A model generated the notes under the pieces. It had not been told where the DNA came from. It searched no databases and saw nothing but the letters and a program-made list of their open reading frames with translations. Position numbers and translations under genes: made by a program. This document shows positions 24,981 through 36,971 of a stretch of 64,000 bases of DNA, one piece after another (within the stretch, counting starts at the first letter, position 1; each line of letters begins with the position of its first letter). Source of the stretch: Acinetobacter sp. TGL-Y2 (GTDB lineage Bacteria; Pseudomonadota; Gammaproteobacteria; Pseudomonadales; Moraxellaceae); contig NZ_CP015110.1 of NCBI RefSeq assembly GCF_001612555.1, forward strand, positions 1,612,001 to 1,676,000. Direction: 5' to 3'.

Positions 24981-25975
24981 TAGCTGCAATCTTATTTTAG
25001 GATACAATGATAAAAAATTAATTTGTTCAAGATCATGCCTAAAGTATATTCAGTGGATTTACGTGAAAAAGTCATGCAGTTTTATGAAGAAAATAATCAC
25101 AAATCATATACATGTAAAACCTTTAAAATATCTAGAACCACTTTGGATGATTGGATTCTTCTTCAAAACACCACTGGAGAATTGAAACAGCCTAAAATCA
25201 ATGCAGGTCGACCCACTAAAATCAAGGATATGGATGCTTTCAAACACTTTATTGAAACTACTGAATTTTCTCAAGTGAAAGATCTCATCCCTTTATTTGA
25301 ACAAAAGTTTGGGTATCCAATCCTTTACTCAACCCTGTTAAAAGCCATTCATAGACTTGGTTGGACACGTAAAAAAAGAGTTTTCTCTATAAGCAAGCCG
25401 ACAAAATAACAAGGGCTGTATTCAACTGGTTTCTTCCGCAATGGAAAGAGGCGTTTGGGGAAGATCAGATTCTTTATATTGATGAGTCTGGGATAAACAC
25501 CACAGATACAGCGCAATATGGTTGGTCTAAACTAGGCAGTCGTTGCGCTGCTTTAAAATTGGGTGGTCATGGTAAAAGATTAAGTATCATCAGTGCTGTG
25601 AGGTCTAATTCAGCGTATCAGTTCCTTTACCCTTTGATTTTTCAAGGTTCATGCGATCGAGCAATGTTCACGGGATGGTTGAGATATCTACTTGAAAATT
25701 TAACCAAAGATAATCAAGATAAGACCAAAAGACATCTGCTGATTCTAGATAACGCTTCGATTCATAAGAACGGAGATATCAAAAAACTAGCCAAAGACTT
25801 TAACTGTAGAATCATGTACTTGCCTGCTTACAGTCCAGATTTAAATCCAATTGAAAAAGCATGGTCAGTGCTAAAATCCAAAGTTAAAAGTATCGCTGTC
25901 CGTTTTGACAAAAACATAGAAGAAGCGCTCGATTTAGGCTTGAAGGCAATGTAGCTTAAAATTTAAATCCAGCTA
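24981..25975 (+). mobile_element. IS630-family insertion sequence, complete
   Basis: A 995-bp element with related ends: the left end begins TAGCTGCAATCTTATTTTAG and the right end is its imperfect inverse, finishing in CCAGCTA. TA dinucleotides flank both ends (24979-24980 and 25976-25977), as expected for IS630/Tc1-type insertion. It contains one two-frame DDE transposase. The insertion replaced the stop codon of the adjacent minus-strand gene. Confidence 0.85.
25035..25954 (+). CDS. IS630-family DDE transposase, two frames joined by a -1 shift
   Basis: Frame A (25035-25409) encodes the helix-turn-helix part (YSVDLREKVMQFYEEN, ending KAIHRLGWTRKKR). Frame B carries the DDE catalytic part: YIDESGINT (first Asp), LLILDNASIH (second Asp), SPDLNPIEKAW (Glu). 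A run of seven A at 25371-25377 lies just before the end of frame A; a -1 slip there joins the two frames into about 305 aa. Programmed -1 frameshifting is common in insertion sequences, including some IS630 members, so this is probably a working gene rather than a broken one. Confidence 0.82.
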
Positions 25976-26262
25976 TAAATTTTATCCCATGCATCTTTGA
26001 CGGCATGCTTTGCGTGTTCCCACTTTAAGCGAGAATCTGCTTTAAAATGATCCCATTTTGATTTTAGATCATTTTCAGAGTCTTCAAATCGAGCATCTTT
26101 GCCATACTCAGCACGTGAATTCCGTCCAAACTCATACGCTGATGAAAGATCACGATCATAGTCAATATCGGGTATGTCGCGTTTTAAATCATTATAATAT
26201 GGACGTTCAGTGTGACTGTCACGCCAATAGTTACGTGATTCTAAATGATCTGGTTGAGTCAT
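25963..26262 (-). CDS. Small hydrophilic protein of unknown function, 3' end altered by the IS
   Basis: 99 aa from the ATG at 26262 (MTQPDHLESRNYWRDS), preceded by AGGAA; upstream in-frame starts lack a ribosome site. Rich in D, E, K, R, Y and W, with a C-terminal helix (KWDHFKADSRLKWEHAKHAV). No signal peptide, no membrane segment, no family recognised. Removing the IS and one TA copy restores ...AWDKI followed by a TAA stop; the IS changes this to ...AWDKIYSWI, four extra residues. The protein is therefore probably still functional. Confidence 0.65.
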   Translation of the reverse strand: MTQPDHLESRNYWRDSHTERPYYNDLKRDIPDIDYDRDLSSAYEFGRNSRAEYGKDARFEDSENDLKSKWDHFKADSRLKWEHAKHAVKDAWDKIYSWI

Positions 26263-26575
26263 AGTCTGATTCCTTATTTTCAATGTGATTAAAGTGAAAT
26301 CCAGTCTGTTGATATTCAATCTATTCATAGATGATGACAACATCTTAAATCCACTTCACTATTTTTAAATATATAGAATCTGATTTGATCAGACACTCAT
26401 ATTAATAACAGAAATTTTGATCTCATATATTTTAGAATGTTAATATTTGTATTGGATTGAATATCATAAAATGCATTAAAGCGTAATATTCATCATTTAG
26501 GTAACACCATTTAATATTTTAATACATTTGTTTTGCTGTTCAGTCATCATTATATTGCTGAGCATCTCTTAAAAT
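26263..26575. other. AT-rich gap without recognisable features
   Basis: About 310 bp between the small hydrophilic gene (its promoter must be here) and the CinA-like pseudogene. The only local symmetry noted is TCTGA/TCAGA (near 26380). No coding frame or RNA gene was seen. Confidence 0.5.
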
Positions 26576-27546: not shown

Positions 27547-29670
27547 ATGAAAAATAAAGCAAACAAAAGCGAAATGGCTGGAGCCAATCAAGACAATAAA
27601 CAAAATCAGTCTGCAAAATCTGATCAGCTTGATGGTTTTCGCAGTGATGCCACTCAGCAAGACCTCACCACCAATCATGGGGTGAAAATCTCAGACAATC
27701 AAAATAGCCTGAAAAGTGGACCACGAGGTTCAACGCTATTAGAAGACTTTATACTCAGAGAGAAGATTACCCATTTTGATCATGAACGTATTCCTGAGCG
27801 AATCGTACATGCGCGAGGCGTGGGCGCACACGGTTATTTTGAAGCCTATCCAGGCAATGAAAAGTTTACTAAAGCTGGATTTTTAACAGACCCATCTACC
27901 CGCACCCCGATTTTTGTTCGTTTTTCTACGGTGCAAGGGCCACGTGGTTCAGCCGATACTGTACGTGATATTCGTGGTTTCGCGATCAAGTTTTATACCC
28001 AAGAAGGTAACTATGACTTGGTCGGCAACAATGCACCTGTCTTCTTTATTCAAGACGGGATTAAGTTTCCAGATTTTGTCCATGCGGTAAAACCTGAACC
28101 GCACAATGAAGTACCTACGGGTGGATCTGCACATGATACCTTTTGGGATTTTGTGTCACTTGTGCCTGAGTCAGCACATGCGGTGATGTGGGCGATGTCA
28201 GATCGTGCAATTCCGCGTAATTTAAGATCGATTCAAGGTTTTGGTGTACATACTTTCCGTTTAATCAATGCTGAAGGAAAGGGCGTATTTGTCAAGTTCC
28301 ACTGGACGCCAAAGCAAGGCTTAGCGCAGCTGGTTTGGGATGAAGCTCAAAAACTTGCAGGTAAAGATCCTGATTTCCATCGCCGTGATTTATATGATGC
28401 GATTGACAACGGTTTTTATCCTGAGTGGGAATTGGGCATTCAGATCGTTGAAGAAAAAGACGAGATGAGTTTTGACTTTGACTTACTCGACCCGACCAAA
28501 ATTATTCCAGAAGAATTGGTGCCTGTTACCCCCATTGGTAAGTTTGTACTGAACCGCAATGTCGATAATTTCTTTGCTGAAATTGAACAAATTGCATTTT
28601 GCCCAGGTCATATTGTACCCGGAATCGACTTTACCAACGATCCGCTGCTGCAAGCACGATTGTTTTCTTATACAGATACCCAGTTAAGCCGTTTGGGTGG
28701 CCCGAATTTCCATCAGTTGCCCATCAATAAGCCTGTCTGTCCGTTCCATAATAATCAACGTGATGGTATACATCAGTCTTTGGTACATAAAGGGCAGGCC
28801 TCTTATCAGCCAAATTCTATAGACAGTAACTGGCCTGCTGAAGTTGCGCCTGCTGCTCAAAATGGTGGTTTTGAAAGTTATCAAGAACGTGTAGATGGTC
28901 ATAAAATTCGACAACGCAGTGAATCTTTCTCTGATCATTTCTCTCAAGCACGCCTGTACTATCAGAGTCTAGCGCCGCATGAGCAAAAACACGTGGTTGA
29001 TGCGTATACTTTTGAGCTGAGTAAAGTCAAACGCCCGCACATTCGCGAGCGCGAAGTACAAGAGGTGTTGGCCAATATTGATTTTGATTTGGCGAAACAA
29101 GTCGGTGACAACTTAGGCATTGAAGTAACTGATCCAAAAACTCAGAAACAATCCAAGCTTCAAACCTCGAAAAAATTATCCCTTGAAGCATTTGCACCGT
29201 CTGATATTAAAGCCAAGAAAATTGCTATTTTGGTTCATCCACAAGTCAATGCAAAAAATGTTGATGCGATTTTAAAATGGGCAAAAGCTGAGAATGCAAT
29301 TGCACATGTTTTAACGCCAACACCTGCGCCTGTACCGAGCTTAGGCAAAGTGCAATTGGCATCTGATGGCATGCAAAAGGGCGAGCCATCGATTGCTTAT
29401 GACGCAGTGGTGATCGTCGATGGTGATAATCTTGATGTAGTTCAATCCGACGGTGTTGCAAAACATTATCTTCAAGAAGCGTATAAACATTTGAAGCCTG
29501 TGGTTTTCTTGGGGGACAAAGGTCAATTAATCGAGGCATTGCAATTAATGCCAGATGAAGGAACCCTGCAAGCTGACAGTTTTGATGAAGTTAAAGATAG
29601 CTTAAAAACATTGCTGATTAAACATCGGGTTTGGGCGCGAGAAGCAGCAGCTGAAGGTATTCCTGCATAA
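27547..29670 (+). CDS. katE: Catalase HPII (large-subunit monofunctional haem catalase)
   Basis: 707 aa, the size of large-subunit catalases, with an extended N-terminus, a catalase core and a C-terminal DJ-1/glutamine amidotransferase-like domain (about 570-705, including DAVVIVDGDNLDVV). The distal haem pocket has VHARGVGAHGYFE (His) and GNNAPVFFIQD (Asn); the proximal haem ligand Tyr is in RLFSYTDTQLSRLGG. It breaks down hydrogen peroxide in the cytoplasm, typically in stationary phase or under stress. It stands just before the four-gene cluster and near otsBA, suggesting a stress-tolerance region. Confidence 0.95.
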   Translation: MKNKANKSEMAGANQDNKQNQSAKSDQLDGFRSDATQQDLTTNHGVKISDNQNSLKSGPRGSTLLEDFILREKITHFDHERIPERIVHARGVGAHGYFEAYPGNEKFTKAGFLTDPSTRTPIFVRFSTVQGPRGSADTVRDIRGFAIKFYTQEGNYDLVGNNAPVFFIQDGIKFPDFVHAVKPEPHNEVPTGGSAHDTFWDFVSLVPESAHAVMWAMSDRAIPRNLRSIQGFGVHTFRLINAEGKGVFVKFHWTPKQGLAQLVWDEAQKLAGKDPDFHRRDLYDAIDNGFYPEWELGIQIVEEKDEMSFDFDLLDPTKIIPEELVPVTPIGKFVLNRNVDNFFAEIEQIAFCPGHIVPGIDFTNDPLLQARLFSYTDTQLSRLGGPNFHQLPINKPVCPFHNNQRDGIHQSLVHKGQASYQPNSIDSNWPAEVAPAAQNGGFESYQERVDGHKIRQRSESFSDHFSQARLYYQSLAPHEQKHVVDAYTFELSKVKRPHIREREVQEVLANIDFDLAKQVGDNLGIEVTDPKTQKQSKLQTSKKLSLEAFAPSDIKAKKIAILVHPQVNAKNVDAILKWAKAENAIAHVLTPTPAPVPSLGKVQLASDGMQKGEPSIAYDAVVIVDGDNLDVVQSDGVAKHYLQEAYKHLKPVVFLGDKGQLIEALQLMPDEGTLQADSFDEVKDSLKTLLIKHRVWAREAAAEGIPA

Positions 29671-29882
29671 CGATTTTCTTTTAAAGAGAAGATGTTGATA
29701 AAGAGAATATGCTCAAGCACTTCGATGCTAAATGGCCGAAATAAATGGATACAGGTTTAATCAATTTAAGCCTGTACCTTCTTGATATATAGGTAAAATT
29801 GAATAAAACTTAAATGTATAACGTTTAAATGATCACTTTATAAAATAATGAATCATGCATGCCTTAAATACAGGGAGTGTTT

Positions 29883-30872
29883 ATGCTCAAAGCTATTACA
29901 ACTGTATTAGAACAATTTGAACAATCGAACATAGACGAAAAAGCCCGTTTAGAACAGGCGATCATGCAACTGTTGCCTGTCGCAGAGCAAATTCCACATC
30001 CGGCTCAAGGTCAAACCTTATTGCGTTGGCAAATTTTGGCACAAGTCGCCGCCAGCAACTTAAATTTGGTGAAGTGGTTTGAATCGCATTTAGATGCGCT
30101 GAGTATTTTGAATGAGTTGCAATATCCGAATGTAAAAAGCGGACTATGGGCCGTATGGGCGGCAGAAGGTAGTCCGCAGCCTTTAAAGTTTGAGCATGGA
30201 CATTGTATAGGTCTTAAGAACTGGTGTTCTGGAGCGAGCTTGGTTGATTATGGGTTGATGAGCTATAAAGACGAAAATAATCAATCTCAATTGCTCATTG
30301 TAAATATGCATGAACAAGGCATAGAGATACGACCAGCAGGCTGGCATGCGCTGGGTATGCAGTACACTCAAACCAGTGCGATCTATTTTCAACATGTAAA
30401 AGCTGAAAAAGTCGGAGCGCCGAATGCCTATTTGAATCGTGCTGGATTTTGGCATGGTGCAGCAGGGGTGGCGGCGTGTTGGTTTGGCGCAGCGCTTCGT
30501 TTGGCAGGTTATTTAATTGAAGCTGCAAAAACGAATCCTCATGATTTTAAGCAGATGTATTTAGGTGAGGTCATGACAGCCGTTGAAACCACACGCCAGC
30601 TTTTTTATGCACTTGCAAAGAAACTAGATGAAGCACCGCATCTCAGTCATGAGTTAGAGATTCGAATACTCAGAGCACAAACCGAATCGACTGCAGAACT
30701 TATTTTAAAAAATGTGGGTAAAGCATTGGGTGCAAGGCCTTATTGTGAAGACAAGCAGTTTGCTCAGCTGTCAACAGACTTAGCTGTGTTTTTAAGACAA
30801 AGTCATGCGGCATTTGATTTAAAAAGAATCGGGGAGCTTGTGTCAGAGGAGTCGAATGTATGGCAACTTTAA
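29883..30872 (+). CDS. Acyl-CoA dehydrogenase-like protein of a four-gene cluster
   Basis: 329 aa from the ATG at 29883, with AGGGAG five bases upstream; a GTG two codons earlier is less likely. It resembles the acyl-CoA dehydrogenase fold (helical N-part, beta middle around LLIVNMHEQGIEIRPAGWHA, helical C-part ALRLAGYLIEAAKTNPHDF) but is about 60 residues shorter than usual and lacks the standard signature motifs. It may bind FAD and oxidise an acyl group on a carrier or a related substrate. First gene of a tight operon; it overlaps the PIG-L gene by 13 bp. Confidence 0.7.
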   Translation: MLKAITTVLEQFEQSNIDEKARLEQAIMQLLPVAEQIPHPAQGQTLLRWQILAQVAASNLNLVKWFESHLDALSILNELQYPNVKSGLWAVWAAEGSPQPLKFEHGHCIGLKNWCSGASLVDYGLMSYKDENNQSQLLIVNMHEQGIEIRPAGWHALGMQYTQTSAIYFQHVKAEKVGAPNAYLNRAGFWHGAAGVAACWFGAALRLAGYLIEAAKTNPHDFKQMYLGEVMTAVETTRQLFYALAKKLDEAPHLSHELEIRILRAQTESTAELILKNVGKALGARPYCEDKQFAQLSTDLAVFLRQSHAAFDLKRIGELVSEESNVWQL

Positions 30873-31687
30873 AAGCAGTCGATCAGCCATCCCATACTTT
30901 TTTAAATCTTGCTTCAAATGATCCAGAAAATAAGCAACGCTTGATCTATGGGCAAGGCACCACCAAACAGCAATGGCTTGACTGGAAAGGTTTAAGCGAA
31001 CTTAAGCCTTTTGAGATTGAAACACACTTTCCAAAACACAGTCGCGTCTTGATTCTAGCACCCCATCCAGATGATGAAATCTTAGGCTGCGGCGGTCTGC
31101 TCCAAAAGCTGTCGAAATTACAGCGCAATATTGTTTTGATTGCGGTTATCAATGGCACCAAAAGTCATCCTGACTCCACGCTTTATACAGAGGATCACTT
31201 GAATCAAATTCGACCTGCTGAGTCAAAAGCGGCACTCGAAGTTTTAGATATTCAAAATATCCAGCGTATAGCACTGAATTTGCAAGATGGCGCAATTGCG
31301 ATCTCGCATGCTCAGTTTTACGCAAAGCTTGAACAGTTGCTTGAGCCGAATGATATTTTAGTCACCACCTATGAAAAAGATGGTCATCCCGATCATGAGC
31401 ATAGCGCATATGTGGTTTCTCAAATCTGCAAAAAATATCAACTCAAATATTATCAAGTGTTGATTTGGGCATGGCACTGGGCAGCGCCCAATAATGCACA
31501 AATTGCATGGGAGCAGGCTTATCGTTTAGATTTAGATTCAATTGAGTTGGAACTGAAACATCGCGCGATTCAATGTTTTAAAAGTCAGTTAGATATTGAT
31601 TCCTCTACAGGGCAGGCACCGATATTATCGAGTGAAGTGGTTGATCGAATTTTAATGCCTTATGAGGTGTACATGCATGGACAGTAA
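30860..31687 (+). CDS. PIG-L family (LmbE-like) deacetylase
   Basis: 275 aa. The zinc-binding PIG-L motif is clear: LAPHPDDEILGCGG (His, Asp, Asp), with the third ligand in KDGHPDHEHSA. Members remove acetyl groups from N-acetylglucosamine-type sugars (for example GlcNAc-PI, mycothiol and bacillithiol precursors). It sits between an ACAD-like gene and a NodS-like methyltransferase, overlapping both, so its substrate is probably a product of the downstream glycosyltransferase (inference). Confidence 0.88.
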   Translation: MATLKAVDQPSHTFLNLASNDPENKQRLIYGQGTTKQQWLDWKGLSELKPFEIETHFPKHSRVLILAPHPDDEILGCGGLLQKLSKLQRNIVLIAVINGTKSHPDSTLYTEDHLNQIRPAESKAALEVLDIQNIQRIALNLQDGAIAISHAQFYAKLEQLLEPNDILVTTYEKDGHPDHEHSAYVVSQICKKYQLKYYQVLIWAWHWAAPNNAQIAWEQAYRLDLDSIELELKHRAIQCFKSQLDIDSSTGQAPILSSEVVDRILMPYEVYMHGQ

Positions 31688-32276
31688 AAGCCAATATTTT
31701 GAAGCAATGTACGAAGAAAGTGATGACCCGTGGGATTATGCCAACCGTTGGTATGAAAAGCGCAAACGTCAGATTTGTATGTCAGTCTTACCTAAAATGA
31801 GTTTTGAGCATGTGTTAGAGATAGGCTGTGCCAATGGTTTTTTGAGTGAATTACTGGCAGAGCGCTGTCAAAAATTACTGTGTATAGATGCCAATCCCAA
31901 AGCGATTGAGTTGGCAAAGCAGCGCTTAGACGCTGCGGCTCATGTGGAATTTATCCAACATCGCATTCCAAATGAGTTTCCAAACGGTTCATTTGATCTG
32001 ATTGTGGTCAGTGAAATTTTATATTACCTCAGCAAAAGTGAGGTGACAGCCTGTTTAGAGCAGATAAAAACATCACTGTCAAAAGATGGCGTGGTGTTGA
32101 GTTGTCATTGGCGCTATCCGATCGAAGGCTTTGAGCTCAATGGCAATACGGTGCATGAGCTGTTAAGAACTGAGCTGAATTTACACCATTCCTTCAGTTT
32201 AGCGGATCCCGATTTTGTATTGGATATCTGGACACATCATCCAGCAAGTGTGGCACAGCAGGAGGGTTTATTATGA
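31677..32276 (+). CDS. NodS-like SAM-dependent methyltransferase
   Basis: 199 aa from the ATG at 31677 (MDSKSQYFEAMYEESDDP), preceded by GAGGTG and overlapping the deacetylase by 11 bp. The N-terminal DDPWDYANRWYEKRKR segment and motif I VLEIGCANGFLSELLA resemble the NodS/TPMT-type group, which in rhizobia N-methylates the free amino group of deacetylated chito-oligosaccharides. The acidic motif is LCIDANPKAIELA. An N-methyltransferase acting after the PIG-L deacetylase is plausible but unproven. Confidence 0.82.
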   Translation: MDSKSQYFEAMYEESDDPWDYANRWYEKRKRQICMSVLPKMSFEHVLEIGCANGFLSELLAERCQKLLCIDANPKAIELAKQRLDAAAHVEFIQHRIPNEFPNGSFDLIVVSEILYYLSKSEVTACLEQIKTSLSKDGVVLSCHWRYPIEGFELNGNTVHELLRTELNLHHSFSLADPDFVLDIWTHHPASVAQQEGLL

Positions 32277-33013
32277 TCATTGGTGTGGTCATACCTGCTT
32301 ACAACGAAGAGCACTATTTAAAAGCCTGTTTAGACTCGATTGATATCGCCATTCAGCAAATTTCGATTTATCAACAATCAACATCAACACATCAGGTGAA
32401 CAGACAATCCAGCGCAAAAAAAAGCTTTGGACCCGAAAATGAGTATGAGATCAAGGCCCAAGTTTTGGTGGTGCTGGATAGTTGTAAGGATGGCTCACTG
32501 CCTATTGTTCAGAATTCTAAGGCGGCTTATTTAGAATGTGACGTTAATTCAGTCGGCATTGCCCGTGATTTAGGGGTAAGAGAGCTGATTAGACAAGGTG
32601 CAGATTGGATTGCCTGTACAGATGCGGACTCAACTGTAGATGTGTTGTGGCTTGTAGAACAAATTCGTGCGCAGCCCGCAGATGTGATTTGTGGCGTGGT
32701 GGATGTCGACCGCTGGGACACCTTGTCCGAAAAAACCAAACATGAATACATTTCTCAGTATCAGGACTGTATGAATCATACCCATATACATGGGGCAAAT
32801 TTGAGTTTTTCAGCAGCTGCATATATCGCTGCTGGTGGTTTTCAACCCATAGCTTGTCATGAAGATGTGAGACTGGTTGAGCAAATGCAAGCCATGAATT
32901 TAAATATCACTTGGACGAATCGGGTAAGGGTCACGACCAGCAGCCGTTTGGATGGAAGAGCGCCTGAAGGATTTGCTCACTTTTTAAAAACGATTGAGTG
33001 TAATCAGAGCTAA
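32273..33013 (+). CDS. Family 2 glycosyltransferase
   Basis: 246 aa GT-A-fold enzyme: VVIPAYNEEHYLKACLDSI at the N-terminus, nucleotide/metal site CTDADS, and acceptor-side HGANLSFSAAAY with HEDVRL. A hydrophilic insertion lies at about residues 38-58. It overlaps the methyltransferase by 4 bp (ATGA) and is the last gene of the cluster. No membrane segment, so it works in the cytoplasm or at the inner face of the membrane. Donor and acceptor cannot be told. Confidence 0.85.
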   Translation: MIIGVVIPAYNEEHYLKACLDSIDIAIQQISIYQQSTSTHQVNRQSSAKKSFGPENEYEIKAQVLVVLDSCKDGSLPIVQNSKAAYLECDVNSVGIARDLGVRELIRQGADWIACTDADSTVDVLWLVEQIRAQPADVICGVVDVDRWDTLSEKTKHEYISQYQDCMNHTHIHGANLSFSAAAYIAAGGFQPIACHEDVRLVEQMQAMNLNITWTNRVRVTTSSRLDGRAPEGFAHFLKTIECNQS

Positions 33014-33375: not shown

Positions 33376-34593
33376 ATGATCATCACCAAACCCAACGTAA
33401 TTGAACGTGCCTTAACTCAAAAGTCGCAGCATTCACTTTCGACGGTTATCAGTTTCTTTTGCCTCGGATTATGTACCGCGGCTTGGGCACCTTTAATTCC
33501 TTATGCACAGCAAAGGCTGAGTCTTAATCATGCGGATTTTGGTGGACTCTTGCTGTGCGGTGGTTTGGGATCAATGATTGCAATGCCTGCGACTGGATAT
33601 CTCATTCAAAAGTTAGGATGTAGATCTATGATTGCGGCATTTTTGTTGGTCCTAATGTTTACTTTGCCACTGATGACACTTGCACCGAGCGCTGCAATGT
33701 TGGCTATTTTATTGTTTATTTTCGGCAGTGCTGCGGGAGGGCTTGGGGTGGTGATTAATTACCAAGCTGTGGTGGTGGAGAAAAAACTGACCCAAAACTT
33801 AATGTCTAGTTTTCATGGGATGTGCAGTCTGGGTGGTTTGGGCGGGGTAATGGCGGTGACATTATTGTTATCTGTCGGTGTTCCACCTTTTTTAAGCGCC
33901 GTCTTAATGGGTTTTATTCTTCTCATCTTAGTGTGTGTTGCAGTCCCACACAGTTTGAAAAAAACTGAGATCTTAGATTTAAATACTCAAAATACTGATG
34001 AATCTAGCCACAGTGTAAACATGGCTAATAAATGGATGATGCCTCCGCCTTTGATCTTAGTCTTTGGTTTGATGTGTTTTATTGCATTTTTAACAGAAGG
34101 CTCTGCCATGGAATGGAGCGGAATTTATTTGGTCGATCAATTTAAAATCGATGCAGCTTATTCCGGTTTGGCCTACACCTTTTTTGCTATTGCCATGACT
34201 ATGGGGCGTTTTAGTGGGCATTGGGTGTTAACGTTCTTGGGTGAAAAAAAGACCATCATTTACGGTTCAATTTTGGCTGCGATCGGGCTATCAATTGTGA
34301 TTGCAGCACCCATTTGGACCGTGGCTTTGTTAGGGTATTTCCTGATGGGTTTGGGCTGTGCAAATATTGTTCCGACTATCTTTTCTCAAGTGGGTCGTCA
34401 AAACGTGATGCCAAAAGCAGTTGCATTGTCTTATGTATCGACCATGGCATATAGTGGGGTATTGATCGGACCTGCATTTATTGGGCTGGGTAGTGAAATA
34501 TTGAGTTTAACAGCTGTATTTACAGTACTCGCGGTGGCTGTAATTTTAATTCCATTATTGAATATGTTCACGCGTTCAAAACGACTGGCTTAA
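33376..34593 (+). CDS. MFS transporter (YbjJ-like)
   Basis: 405 aa with about 12 hydrophobic segments. MFS features: a G-rich loop after helix 2 (GSMIAMPATGYLIQKLGCRS), SSFHGMCSLGGLGGVM in mid-protein, and a second half beginning near LILVFGLMCFIAFLTEGSAM. This layout fits the YbjJ/FucP-related group of uncharacterised carriers. The start at 33376 is a best guess: it has no good ribosome site, and a TTG 36 bp upstream is in frame. Substrate unknown. It ends at a shared terminator with otsA. Confidence 0.8.
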   Translation: MIITKPNVIERALTQKSQHSLSTVISFFCLGLCTAAWAPLIPYAQQRLSLNHADFGGLLLCGGLGSMIAMPATGYLIQKLGCRSMIAAFLLVLMFTLPLMTLAPSAAMLAILLFIFGSAAGGLGVVINYQAVVVEKKLTQNLMSSFHGMCSLGGLGGVMAVTLLLSVGVPPFLSAVLMGFILLILVCVAVPHSLKKTEILDLNTQNTDESSHSVNMANKWMMPPPLILVFGLMCFIAFLTEGSAMEWSGIYLVDQFKIDAAYSGLAYTFFAIAMTMGRFSGHWVLTFLGEKKTIIYGSILAAIGLSIVIAAPIWTVALLGYFLMGLGCANIVPTIFSQVGRQNVMPKAVALSYVSTMAYSGVLIGPAFIGLGSEILSLTAVFTVLAVAVILIPLLNMFTRSKRLA

Positions 34594-34696: not shown

Positions 34697-36130
34697 CTAG
34701 CTTCTATGTTGGACTGTTCGAGCAGGTGAGTCCGATTGCGTTATGGTGGTGGGTGCAATCGCTTTTAAATCATTTAAGAAAGCATTGCGCCAATCCTTAA
34801 TATCAAAATGCTTTAAGCCTTTAATTAAGTATTCATAGCGCTCAATACGCTCAGATTTGGACATGACTAATGCTTTTTTTAAGGCATTGACCATACTGCT
34901 GGGTGACTCAGGATCGACAATAATCGCTTCAGGCATTTGCTCTGCTGAACCTGCATATTTAGATAAAATCAAAATGCCAGGACATTCAGGGTCTTGTGCA
35001 GCAATAAATTCCTTGGCGACTAAATTCATACCATCACGTAAAGAATTGACCCAACAAATGTCGGATTGACGATAAATTTGCATGAGTTGATCATGCGCAA
35101 TAGTATCATGCGTACATTGAATAGGATTCCAATCACCTTGTGAAAACTGATGATTAATCGCATCAACTTTGGCTTGTACTTGATTGAATAAATCCTCATA
35201 CGCTGGAATGTCCATACGACATGGGCAAGCCACTTGCAAATCGGTCACGAGCTGATGGTATTCGGGATATTGTTTTAAAAAATCAGCAAAGGCGTTAAAG
35301 CGCTCAATTAAACCCTTAGAATAATCAATGCGGTCTACAGAAATTATGGTCTTATGATCATCTATTTGATCAAAACTAAAGGTGGTATCCGCTCTTTCGT
35401 TTTCAGCGTCTATAGCAGCCTGCTGTATGAGTTCAGGATTAACGCCAATGGGATAACATTGAATTTTAACCTCGCGATTTTCCAAAACCAAGATTTGATC
35501 TGGGGTGAGCATGCCGCCTAGGTAATATTGTAAAACATCGACACATTGTTTTTGATCTTGCTCAGTTTGTAAGCCGAGCACATTGTATTCAGATAAGTGC
35601 TGAATCAGTTTTTCCGAAACCTCTAAATCTTTCCAAATATTCAAACCAGCAAACGGAATATGCAAGAAAAAGCCAATCCGATTTTTCATACCCAATTCAC
35701 GGCAGTAATGTGCCACGCTTAAAAAATGGTAGTCGTGTACCCAAATCATATCTTCAGGTTCAGCAATACGGCTCAGTTCTAAGGCAAAGTGTTGATTCAC
35801 TTTCTGATAGGTCCGAAATTCATCAGGCTGAAATTCGATAAGGTCTTCACGGTCATGCATTGCAGGCCATAAGGTATTATTGGAAAAACCACAGTAATAG
35901 TCTTCATACTGCTGGTGTGTGAGAGGACAGGTGACATATTCGACCTGCTCGGTTTGATATACGCTAAAATGTTGTTCATCGACAGATTCTACTCTTTCAC
36001 CATTCCAACCTAGCCAAACACCACCCATGTCCTGCAAAGCATCTTGTAATGCCACTGCTAAACCACCCGCGGCATGTCCATTAGCGCTGGGTAAATTGAC
36101 TCGATTTGAAAGTACGATTAATTTAGACAT
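34697..36130 (-). CDS. otsA: Trehalose-6-phosphate synthase
   Basis: 477 aa GT20 enzyme making trehalose-6-phosphate from UDP-glucose and glucose-6-phosphate. It has LSNRVNLPSANGHAAGGLAV near the N-terminus, WVHDYHF, FLHIPFAGLNIW, SVDRIDYSKGLIERF (phosphate/UDP binding) and the C-terminal SLRDGMNLVAKEF. It overlaps otsB by 8 bp. Trehalose protects against osmotic, heat and drying stress; katE nearby points the same way. Confidence 0.95.
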   Translation of the reverse strand: MSKLIVLSNRVNLPSANGHAAGGLAVALQDALQDMGGVWLGWNGERVESVDEQHFSVYQTEQVEYVTCPLTHQQYEDYYCGFSNNTLWPAMHDREDLIEFQPDEFRTYQKVNQHFALELSRIAEPEDMIWVHDYHFLSVAHYCRELGMKNRIGFFLHIPFAGLNIWKDLEVSEKLIQHLSEYNVLGLQTEQDQKQCVDVLQYYLGGMLTPDQILVLENREVKIQCYPIGVNPELIQQAAIDAENERADTTFSFDQIDDHKTIISVDRIDYSKGLIERFNAFADFLKQYPEYHQLVTDLQVACPCRMDIPAYEDLFNQVQAKVDAINHQFSQGDWNPIQCTHDTIAHDQLMQIYRQSDICWVNSLRDGMNLVAKEFIAAQDPECPGILILSKYAGSAEQMPEAIIVDPESPSSMVNALKKALVMSKSERIERYEYLIKGLKHFDIKDWRNAFLNDLKAIAPTTITQSDSPARTVQHRS

Positions 36131-36971
36131 GCTTTTTCTCCATTTTTTTTGATACTTGAGACTGTCTTTTAGCGTGCTTTTGAATTAACTGCGAAAAATG
36201 ATCAATAAAATCACAGGTCGTGCTGATATTTTTAAATCGGTACTGTGCACAGGTTTCTCCTTCACCCACCTTGATGGATATTCCTCCCATTTGATTAATT
36301 TTTTGAAATCCAGATTCATCAGTGCGGTCATCACCCATAAAAATGGGCGTGAATTGATTTAATTTATTGTGTATATAGATTTGTTCAATGGCCTTGCCTT
36401 TATCTGCTTGCGCCAAGATCAGCTCATAAACACATTTGCCTGTACTCAGTTTAAGCTCAGGATATTTGCTTAGTACACGGTCACTGACTTGTCGAGCAAA
36501 CGGGGCAAGTTCTGGATATTCTCTAAAATGAATCGCAACAGCATATTTTTTTCGTTCAATTCTCAGTTTTGGATATAAGGCACAAGCAGCTTCAATCTCT
36601 TGATAAATGTGTTGAAAATTTGAACAATTCATTGGGCTTTGCAGCATGTGCTTATCAGAAAAGCGAATTTCTAGACCGTGTGTTCCTGCAATAGGCAATT
36701 CCAGTGGGTTAAATAATCGAATTGCGTCTTGAATGCTTCTGCCAGTGATCGCTGCTATAGGAATTTTATGTTCTTGTATATGATTTAATTGTTCTAAAGT
36801 TTCTATTGAGATAAAGCTTAAGCTCGGATCTGGATGAAATTCCGATATTGTTCCATCAATATCTAAAAATAAACAATATTTTTCAGCGGGATATATAAGT
36901 TTTTTGATTAAATCCAAAGCTGAAATATAAGGGTTTTTATCATGTATTTGTCCAGTATTCGACTCAAACAT
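36123..36971 (-). CDS. otsB: Trehalose-6-phosphate phosphatase
   Basis: 282 aa HAD-superfamily phosphatase removing phosphate from trehalose-6-phosphate. Motif I is CLFLDIDGTISEF (nucleophile and acid/base Asp), motif II AITGRS, and motif IV FMGDDRTDESGF. An N-terminal extension of about 30 residues precedes the core. First gene of the otsBA pair. The 207 bp upstream are AT-rich and must hold the promoter. Confidence 0.93.
   Translation of the reverse strand: MFESNTGQIHDKNPYISALDLIKKLIYPAEKYCLFLDIDGTISEFHPDPSLSFISIETLEQLNHIQEHKIPIAAITGRSIQDAIRLFNPLELPIAGTHGLEIRFSDKHMLQSPMNCSNFQHIYQEIEAACALYPKLRIERKKYAVAIHFREYPELAPFARQVSDRVLSKYPELKLSTGKCVYELILAQADKGKAIEQIYIHNKLNQFTPIFMGDDRTDESGFQKINQMGGISIKVGEGETCAQYRFKNISTTCDFIDHFSQLIQKHAKRQSQVSKKMEKKHV

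Follow-up and report, generated by a model that had tools for sequence, protein, structure and literature searches.

The Nod-factor pathway (NodC-NodB-NodS) brings together a family-2 glycosyltransferase (GT2), a de-N-acetylase and a NodS-family methyltransferase. The mycothiol and bacillithiol pathways (MshA/MshB, BshA/BshB) proceed by N-acetylglucosamine (GlcNAc) transfer and then PIG-L deacetylation, with a family-4 glycosyltransferase for the first step. Here, we analyzed a four-gene set of Acinetobacter sp. TGL-Y2 within a stretch of 64,000 nucleotides (contig NZ_CP015110.1, positions 1,612,001 to 1,676,000; hereafter, the window). The set encodes a flavoprotein of the acyl-CoA dehydrogenase (ACAD) superfamily, a PIG-L de-N-acylase, a NodS-family methyltransferase and a GT2. 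We find that the four genes form a real unit, tightly joined to trehalose genes of two unrelated pathways and, in other loci, close to a pathway for sucrose. We propose, at a probability of about 45%, that they make up one soluble cytoplasmic pathway to an N-methylated amino-sugar glycoside that is made under stress with trehalose or sucrose.

A preliminary description of this DNA had compared the set to NodB, NodS and NodC, and a deacetylase, a NodS-family methyltransferase and a GT2 are indeed found side by side. The methyltransferase of a Pseudomonas caricapapayae locus (L034) is ~30-33% identical to annotated NodS over ~60-68% of its length. However, the cluster deacetylase is of the PIG-L type whereas NodB is of the polysaccharide deacetylase type, and the cluster GT2, a small protein, lacks membrane segments, unlike NodC. 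Further differences from the Nod system are the added flavoprotein and a setting among stress genes rather than symbiosis; no NodA-type gene was noticed beside the set. With the thiol pathways, the cluster would share the logic of sugar transfer before deacetylation, and the PIG-L protein scores 52.7 bits against the BshB1 model and matches MshB (1q74) with E 1.2e-14. However, the BshB1 cut-off is 182.5, no cysteine ligase (MshC/BshC) is found among the four genes, and the cluster has a GT2, a methyltransferase and a flavoprotein instead. A thiol pathway is therefore not favored.

The preliminary description had claimed that the four genes overlap and should act together. Their coordinates confirm overlaps of 13, 11 and 4 bp (flavoprotein/PIG-L, PIG-L/methyltransferase and methyltransferase/GT2, respectively). 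We surveyed 99 genomes of the genus, of which 33 besides the window's genome carry the set. The flavoprotein is strongly matched in 34/99 genomes, not counting two weak matches (E 4e-4 and 1e-3). PIG-L has a match in 34/99, and so does the methyltransferase at E < 1e-50; many additional genomes contain other methyltransferases that match weakly. All three proteins are found in the identical set of 34 genomes. Two such genome sets would agree by chance with a probability of ~10^-26.6 when kinship is ignored, and kinship makes this figure far too small. The four genes occur in one order and on one strand in 33/33 of the other genomes (34/34 with the window). In one genome (G465, C1:1478595-1479346), PIG-L matched in two separate frames and the flavoprotein and methyltransferase in one frame each.

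Beyond the genus, we searched 398 genomes of the phylum with the flavoprotein and extracted loci of up to 20 kb each. A match was present in 33 genomes including the window's own, leaving 32 other loci. All three partners lie within 6 kb of the flavoprotein in 24 of these, and individually the methyltransferase is near it in 31, PIG-L in 27 and GT2 in 25. Gene order varies, with GT2 ahead of the flavoprotein in several loci and on the opposite strand in three of the 24 complete ones (L076, L082 and L083). The eight incomplete loci, in which at least one partner is absent within 6 kb, are L056, L059, L063, L072, L074, L077, L080 and L081. L074, counted among those missing PIG-L and GT2, is 70% masked (13,900 of 19,901 bases are N), and L081 holds an unrelated flavoprotein (E 3.5e-4); L067 spans only 8.6 kb. 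A separate search for related loci, with PIG-L as the query, yielded 10.

The set is present, in some cases reordered, in Pseudomonas, Rhodococcus, Comamonas, Pandoraea, Legionella, Novosphingobium and Paracoccus. PIG-L is separated from the rest across katE in Cupriavidus, and the GT2 of the Kitasatospora locus is not annotated. Plasmids of Deinococcus and Bradyrhizobium encode the flavoprotein, PIG-L and methyltransferase together with a glycosyltransferase on the opposite strand, and a Methylobacterium plasmid relative (L046) has no partner gene beside the flavoprotein. A second PIG-L gene follows soon after the cluster in L054-L057.

Fused genes also connect the partners. PIG-L is fused to the methyltransferase in Jiella, Aureimonas, Fulvimarina, Arthrobacter and Herbiconiux, among others, and such proteins carry the descriptive NCBI name 'bifunctional PIG-L family deacetylase/class I SAM-dependent methyltransferase'. 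Fusions of PIG-L, methyltransferase and GT2 were found in Micrococcus and two further sources, with a Pfam check on two of the three. These fusions suggest that the three enzymes act in one pathway in which methylation comes directly after or before deacetylation. Because of the strict co-occurrence, the fixed order within the genus and the fusions, we conclude that the four genes belong together, as the preliminary description had supposed; the conservation elsewhere on which it had made its reading depend was found in both genus and phylum. As a parallel fusion with another deacetylase type, a cyanobacterial plasmid encodes an annotated trifunctional glycosyltransferase/methyltransferase/polysaccharide deacetylase (L138:958-4434).

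We next consider the enzymes. PIG-L scores 85.7 bits in Pfam (cut-off 28.2), and residues H69, D71, D72, H176 and H179 of its HPDD ... HxxH motifs, which we take to bind metal, are invariant in 16/16 aligned sequences. Among solved structures, diacetylchitobiose deacetylase is nearest to it, followed by the uncharacterized TT1542, MshB and BshB; teicoplanin-pseudoaglycone deacetylases are also among the relatives. The GT2 scores 45.8 against Glycos_transf_2 (cut-off 23.3) and has distant solved relatives (best E 5.6e-8). Its residues D117 and D119 (DxD) and E197 and D198 (catalytic ED) are invariant in 14/14 aligned sequences. PIG-L and GT2 thus keep their active-site residues. The methyltransferase belongs to a SAM-dependent (S-adenosylmethionine-dependent) family. 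The window's GT2 contains an insert of ~25 residues (32350-32450) that is absent in 13 aligned relatives.

The methyltransferase scores 74.8 against the Pfam NodS family (PF05401), above the cut-off of 24. It is identical at 74/163 residues (45%) to PDB entry 4isc, which in turn is identical at 139/163 residues (85%) to the cluster methyltransferase of P. caricapapayae. By this match, 4isc, labeled 'Methyltransferase' in the search result, is a solved structure of the cluster's methyltransferase type. After 4isc, the cluster methyltransferase profile matches NodS (3ofj, E 2.7e-29) and phosphoethanolamine N-methyltransferases (E ~1e-14), making NodS the closest solved relative with a known function. 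NodS and the phosphoethanolamine enzymes are N-methyltransferases. Four NodS rows form a group of their own (95/100) in a 25-row tree. Given this grouping and a score below the cut-off of the NodS equivalog model, the methyltransferase is a relative of NodS and not NodS itself. With 15/22 inner branches open and a warning of long branches, the tree speaks neither for nor against an origin of NodS from the cluster methyltransferase.

The four enzymes might instead cooperate on a non-glucosamine substrate, such as an N-acyl amine or amino-acid compound. PIG-L would deacylate it, the methyltransferase would methylate it, the flavoprotein would oxidize it and the GT2 would glycosylate it last, yielding a natural-product-like glycoside. 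We consider this possible, although somewhat unlikely. It would fit the finding that flavoprotein and methyltransferase are the steadiest pair in the phylum (31/32 loci, versus 27 for PIG-L and 25 for GT2). Some PIG-L relatives, namely the teicoplanin-pseudoaglycone deacetylases and LnmX, work on larger molecules. Other glycosyltransferases join the set in Novosphingobium (L047) and in L072, from the window's taxonomic order, and therefore the sugar part can vary. However, the best solved PIG-L relatives of known function (chitobiose deacetylase, MshB and BshB) use GlcNAc, and the nearest one for the methyltransferase is NodS. In addition, no polyketide synthase or nonribosomal peptide synthetase was noticed among the shared neighbor families, not all of which are annotated. 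In two readable loci, L077 and L072, flavoprotein and methyltransferase are kept while PIG-L and the usual GT2 are absent; L077 carries two flavoprotein copies and L072 has other glycosyltransferases instead. From these two loci, the pair may be the core of the set.

The flavoprotein departs from its label. Its two Pfam ACAD domains score 22.0 (cut-off 33.3) and 20.5 (cut-off 22.4), and rescoring against the cut-off of 22.4 gave 22.1, or 22.6 when frame neighbors were included. We aligned 30 cluster flavoproteins with ten canonical and four DszC-like members of the ACAD superfamily, all 14 from the window's genome. In acyl-CoA dehydrogenases, the catalytic base is the glutamate of the C-terminal IYEGT motif or one at an alternative helix position. 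A glutamate is found at either position in 9/10 canonical ACADs (L084-L093; L092 lacks both) and in 0/30 cluster flavoproteins. The four DszC-like paralogues likewise lack it. At that site, 24/30 cluster flavoproteins have RQSH and the DszC-like paralogues have LHD. Because the catalytic base is absent, we dropped the reading as an acyl-CoA dehydrogenase or a protein with a lipid role. Thus, the 'ACAD-like' fourth partner of the preliminary description belongs to the superfamily, while acyl-CoA dehydrogenase activity is not expected of it.

Profile comparisons place the flavoprotein nearer the DszC type. In hhalign, the cluster profile scored 110.3 against the DszC-like set (E 1.3e-14, 4 sequences) versus 73.1 against canonical ACADs (E 3e-9, 7 sequences). 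The best match in a PDB profile search was DszC (1.7e-12), with MsuC at 1.6e-10. Amino-sugar N-oxygenases matched as well: 3m9v (KijD3) at 8.1e-7, DnmZ at 4.2e-5 and the nitrososynthase 3mxl (ORF36) at 8.5e-5. DszC/MsuC and these N-oxygenases share the superfamily with the cluster flavoprotein, and the GxKxWCSGA and W-GM segments align. Unlike DszC, the cluster protein is shorter, carries RQSH in place of the LHD of the DszC-like paralogues and has no reductase encoded among the four genes. These comparisons suggest that the flavoprotein resembles DszC-type flavin monooxygenases more than ACADs; instead of a dehydrogenase, it would be an oxidase or oxygenase that uses flavin. A Deinococcus flavoprotein of 787 aa (L132:4898-7258) has ~400 N-terminal residues that look by eye like a glycosidase of glycoside hydrolase family 1 (GH1), followed by the ACAD-like part. 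The N-terminal part has no Pfam hit, and the preceding gene is GH1 by Pfam.

The missing base also bears on the idea that the genes modify a surface glycan such as lipooligosaccharide, capsule or glycolipid, with the flavoprotein changing an acyl chain. GT2 enzymes and PIG-L-type de-N-acylases are frequent in surface glycan assembly, and other glycosyltransferases adjoin the set in some loci. However, no acyl-CoA dehydrogenase base is present in the flavoprotein, and none of the four proteins has a membrane segment: no 19-residue hydropathy window exceeds 1.6 in any of them, whereas a transporter encoded next to the set has 121. No flippase or ligase was noticed among the shared neighbor families, not all annotated, and the set is closely joined to trehalose operons. 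We regard a surface-glycan role as quite improbable.

The preliminary description had pointed to the position of the set between katE and otsBA, and a neighborhood survey supports this linkage. In the genus, otsAB lies near 21/33 loci and katE near 15/33. As descriptive counts among the 32 phylum loci, trehalose/alpha-glucan genes are near nine, sucrose-phosphate synthase (SPS) near three, katE near three and any of these near 14. Some of the queries were taken from surveyed loci (L054, L055 and L079), and the Pfam check of SPS identity covered L072 alone. As a position control, we used whole-genome positions with a 15 kb limit and our own genome included; the test of OtsA and KatE followed the earlier claim. 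Catalase matches were split by score into 29 katE-type and 38 other, excluding weaker ones (E 8e-35 and above). The flavoprotein lies within 15 kb of OtsA in 4/25 cases versus 0.18 expected (three without the window) and of KatE in 4/27 versus 0.19 expected (three without the window). The control pairs gave 0/24 (flavoprotein and other catalases) and 0/28 (other catalases and OtsA), and KatE lies within 15 kb of OtsA in 1/22, the one being the window itself.

We measured gene-to-gene joins in twelve loci. The glgX–flavoprotein join is -4, +5 and -1 bp in the Pseudomonas loci L034, L035 and L039, and +1 bp in L054-L057, which have the same order. The otsA–flavoprotein join is -4 bp in Comamonas and +16, +111 and ~+157 bp in others. 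Comamonas endophytica has the order otsA, four genes, otsB, and in L066 treY lies 1.7 kb from the flavoprotein. TreY, TreZ, MalQ and GlgX were named from reading the sequences and from the published order in P. syringae, glgA-treZ-malQ-treY-3129-glgX (PMC8982409). In L034, the four-gene set starts directly after glgX; the main text of PMC8982409 makes no mention of a deacetylase, methyltransferase or glycosyltransferase. In a P. fluorescens rpoS mutant, trehalose genes and KatE are reduced according to PMC6372562, in whose main text acyl-CoA dehydrogenase, deacetylase and LmbE are not mentioned. Likewise, none of the four enzyme words looked for appears in a study of trehalose in P. aeruginosa (PMC3591346). 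The SigF-dependent genes of M. smegmatis include the family-2 glycosyltransferase MSMEG_1097 (PMC4694148). Recurrent neighbors of the set are LigD (one with Ku), DUF421, DUF2171 and CsbD.

Such neighborhoods could also arise if the set and katE, otsAB or treYZ were merely gained together on a traveling island, with separate functions. The set is patchy across the genus (34/99 genomes). Plasmids of A. towneri (L042) and A. ursingii (L043) carry the island katE-DUF421-iron redox enzyme-DUF2171-four genes-MFS-otsAB, MFS being a major facilitator superfamily transporter, and therefore the whole island may move between Acinetobacter. Joint gain would account for the stress neighbors but not for the strict co-occurrence or the fusions. 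It also leaves unexplained why, in different lineages, the set overlaps glgX or otsA by 4 or 1 bp or is separated from them by 1-5 bp. We hold this account to be improbable.

The stress-linked amino-sugar pathway that we favor would run as follows. The GT2 would attach an N-acetylated sugar to a small acceptor, possibly itself a sugar; UDP-GlcNAc (uridine diphosphate GlcNAc) would probably serve as the donor of GlcNAc. PIG-L would then remove the N-acyl group, and the NodS-type methyltransferase would methylate the amine thus set free; we place these two steps next to each other because of the natural fusions. Finally, the DszC-like flavoprotein may oxidize the product, for example at the amine, and the compound would be used under drying, osmotic or oxidative stress. 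The sequences themselves show that the four genes are a unit, that PIG-L and GT2 keep catalytic residues, that the methyltransferase is of a SAM-dependent family, that the flavoprotein has no acyl-CoA dehydrogenase base, that the proteins are free of membrane segments and that the set is linked to more than one disaccharide pathway. The substrate, donor sugar, order of steps, flavoprotein reaction, benefit and product identity are inferred.

Several observations weigh against this reading. PIG-L proteins, class I methyltransferases and GT2 enzymes each make up a broad family. The methyltransferase scores 86.9 against the NodS equivalog NF041650, far short of the cut-off of 300. PIG-L is missing in 5/32 phylum loci, GT2 in 7/32 and the methyltransferase in 1/32; because PIG-L and GT2 are missing in some loci, flavoprotein and methyltransferase are the firm pair, and from this pair alone an amino-sugar product would not be expected. 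A fusion next to a flavoprotein gene was seen only for Jiella (L027/L083, P0241). In the PDB profile search, canonical ACADs matched too, with scores only slightly behind the DszC type (1rx0, E 7.5e-10). A DszC-type enzyme needs a partner flavin reductase, and none is found among the four genes. No otsAB is nearby in 12/33 genus loci, and 18/32 phylum loci have none of the stress genes sought (including the masked L074, the 8.6-kb L067 and the unrelated L081), the list of which was drawn up after the loci were seen. Lastly, the clustering may reflect a mobile stress island instead of shared chemistry.

Table 1. The four-gene set and its neighbors in the window.
Feature	Position	Strand	Remark
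ACAD-superfamily flavoprotein, DszC-like	29883..30872	+	lacks acyl-CoA dehydrogenase base; probable oxidase or monooxygenase
PIG-L zinc de-N-acylase	30860..31687	+	Pfam; HPDDE ... HxxH
Class I SAM methyltransferase, Pfam NodS family	31677..32276	+	Pfam
Soluble GT2	32273..33013	+	Pfam; DxD and ED residues
MFS transporter	33340 or 33376 to 34593	+	next same-strand gene, between GT2 and otsA
Large catalase katE	27547..29670	+	upstream neighbor; context, outside the pathway
otsA, trehalose-6-phosphate synthase	34697..36130	-	context
otsB, trehalose-6-phosphate phosphatase	36123..36971	-	context; named from relatives annotated otsB

For the flavoprotein, a GTG at 29877 is also in frame, yet the ATG at 29883 has GGGAG ahead of it. 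An alternative in-frame ATG at 31662 would make the methyltransferase five residues longer. The MFS gene between GT2 and otsA did not appear in the preliminary description. It lies 3' of GT2 in 20/33 other loci of the genus, and its product is a possible transporter of the cluster product. The genome comprises 3.69 Mb in three contigs. Further upstream, a small protein without a Pfam match is encoded on the reverse strand (25963-26343) and has relatives near katE on two Acinetobacter plasmids. A scan for promoters and terminators gave counts close to those of shuffled sequence (9 versus 10.6 and 4 versus 3.2, respectively).

Among the literature matches listed, in which coverage of subscription papers was partial, no title or abstract describes the four-gene set. 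These data reveal a biosynthetic set attached to two unrelated kinds of trehalose operon, with no product assigned in the literature found. The set spans alpha-, beta- and gammaproteobacteria, Actinomycetota and Deinococcota (there with the GT2-like gene on the opposite strand). At its boldest, and we think this unlikely, the finding would amount to an undescribed class of stress metabolite. Such a class would consist of amino-sugar glycosides that are N-methylated and may be N-oxygenated, perhaps with trehalose or sucrose as scaffold or companion. They would protect bacteria as diverse as Acinetobacter, Pseudomonas, Rhodococcus and Deinococcus against desiccation or oxidative stress, with the flavoprotein as a new amine or sugar oxygenase. 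The label 'acyl-CoA dehydrogenase' on the first gene would be corrected. If the compound is a protectant, studies of trehalose and desiccation may have missed a second metabolite from the same operon, and rare Nod-factor chemistry would be connected to ordinary stress physiology.

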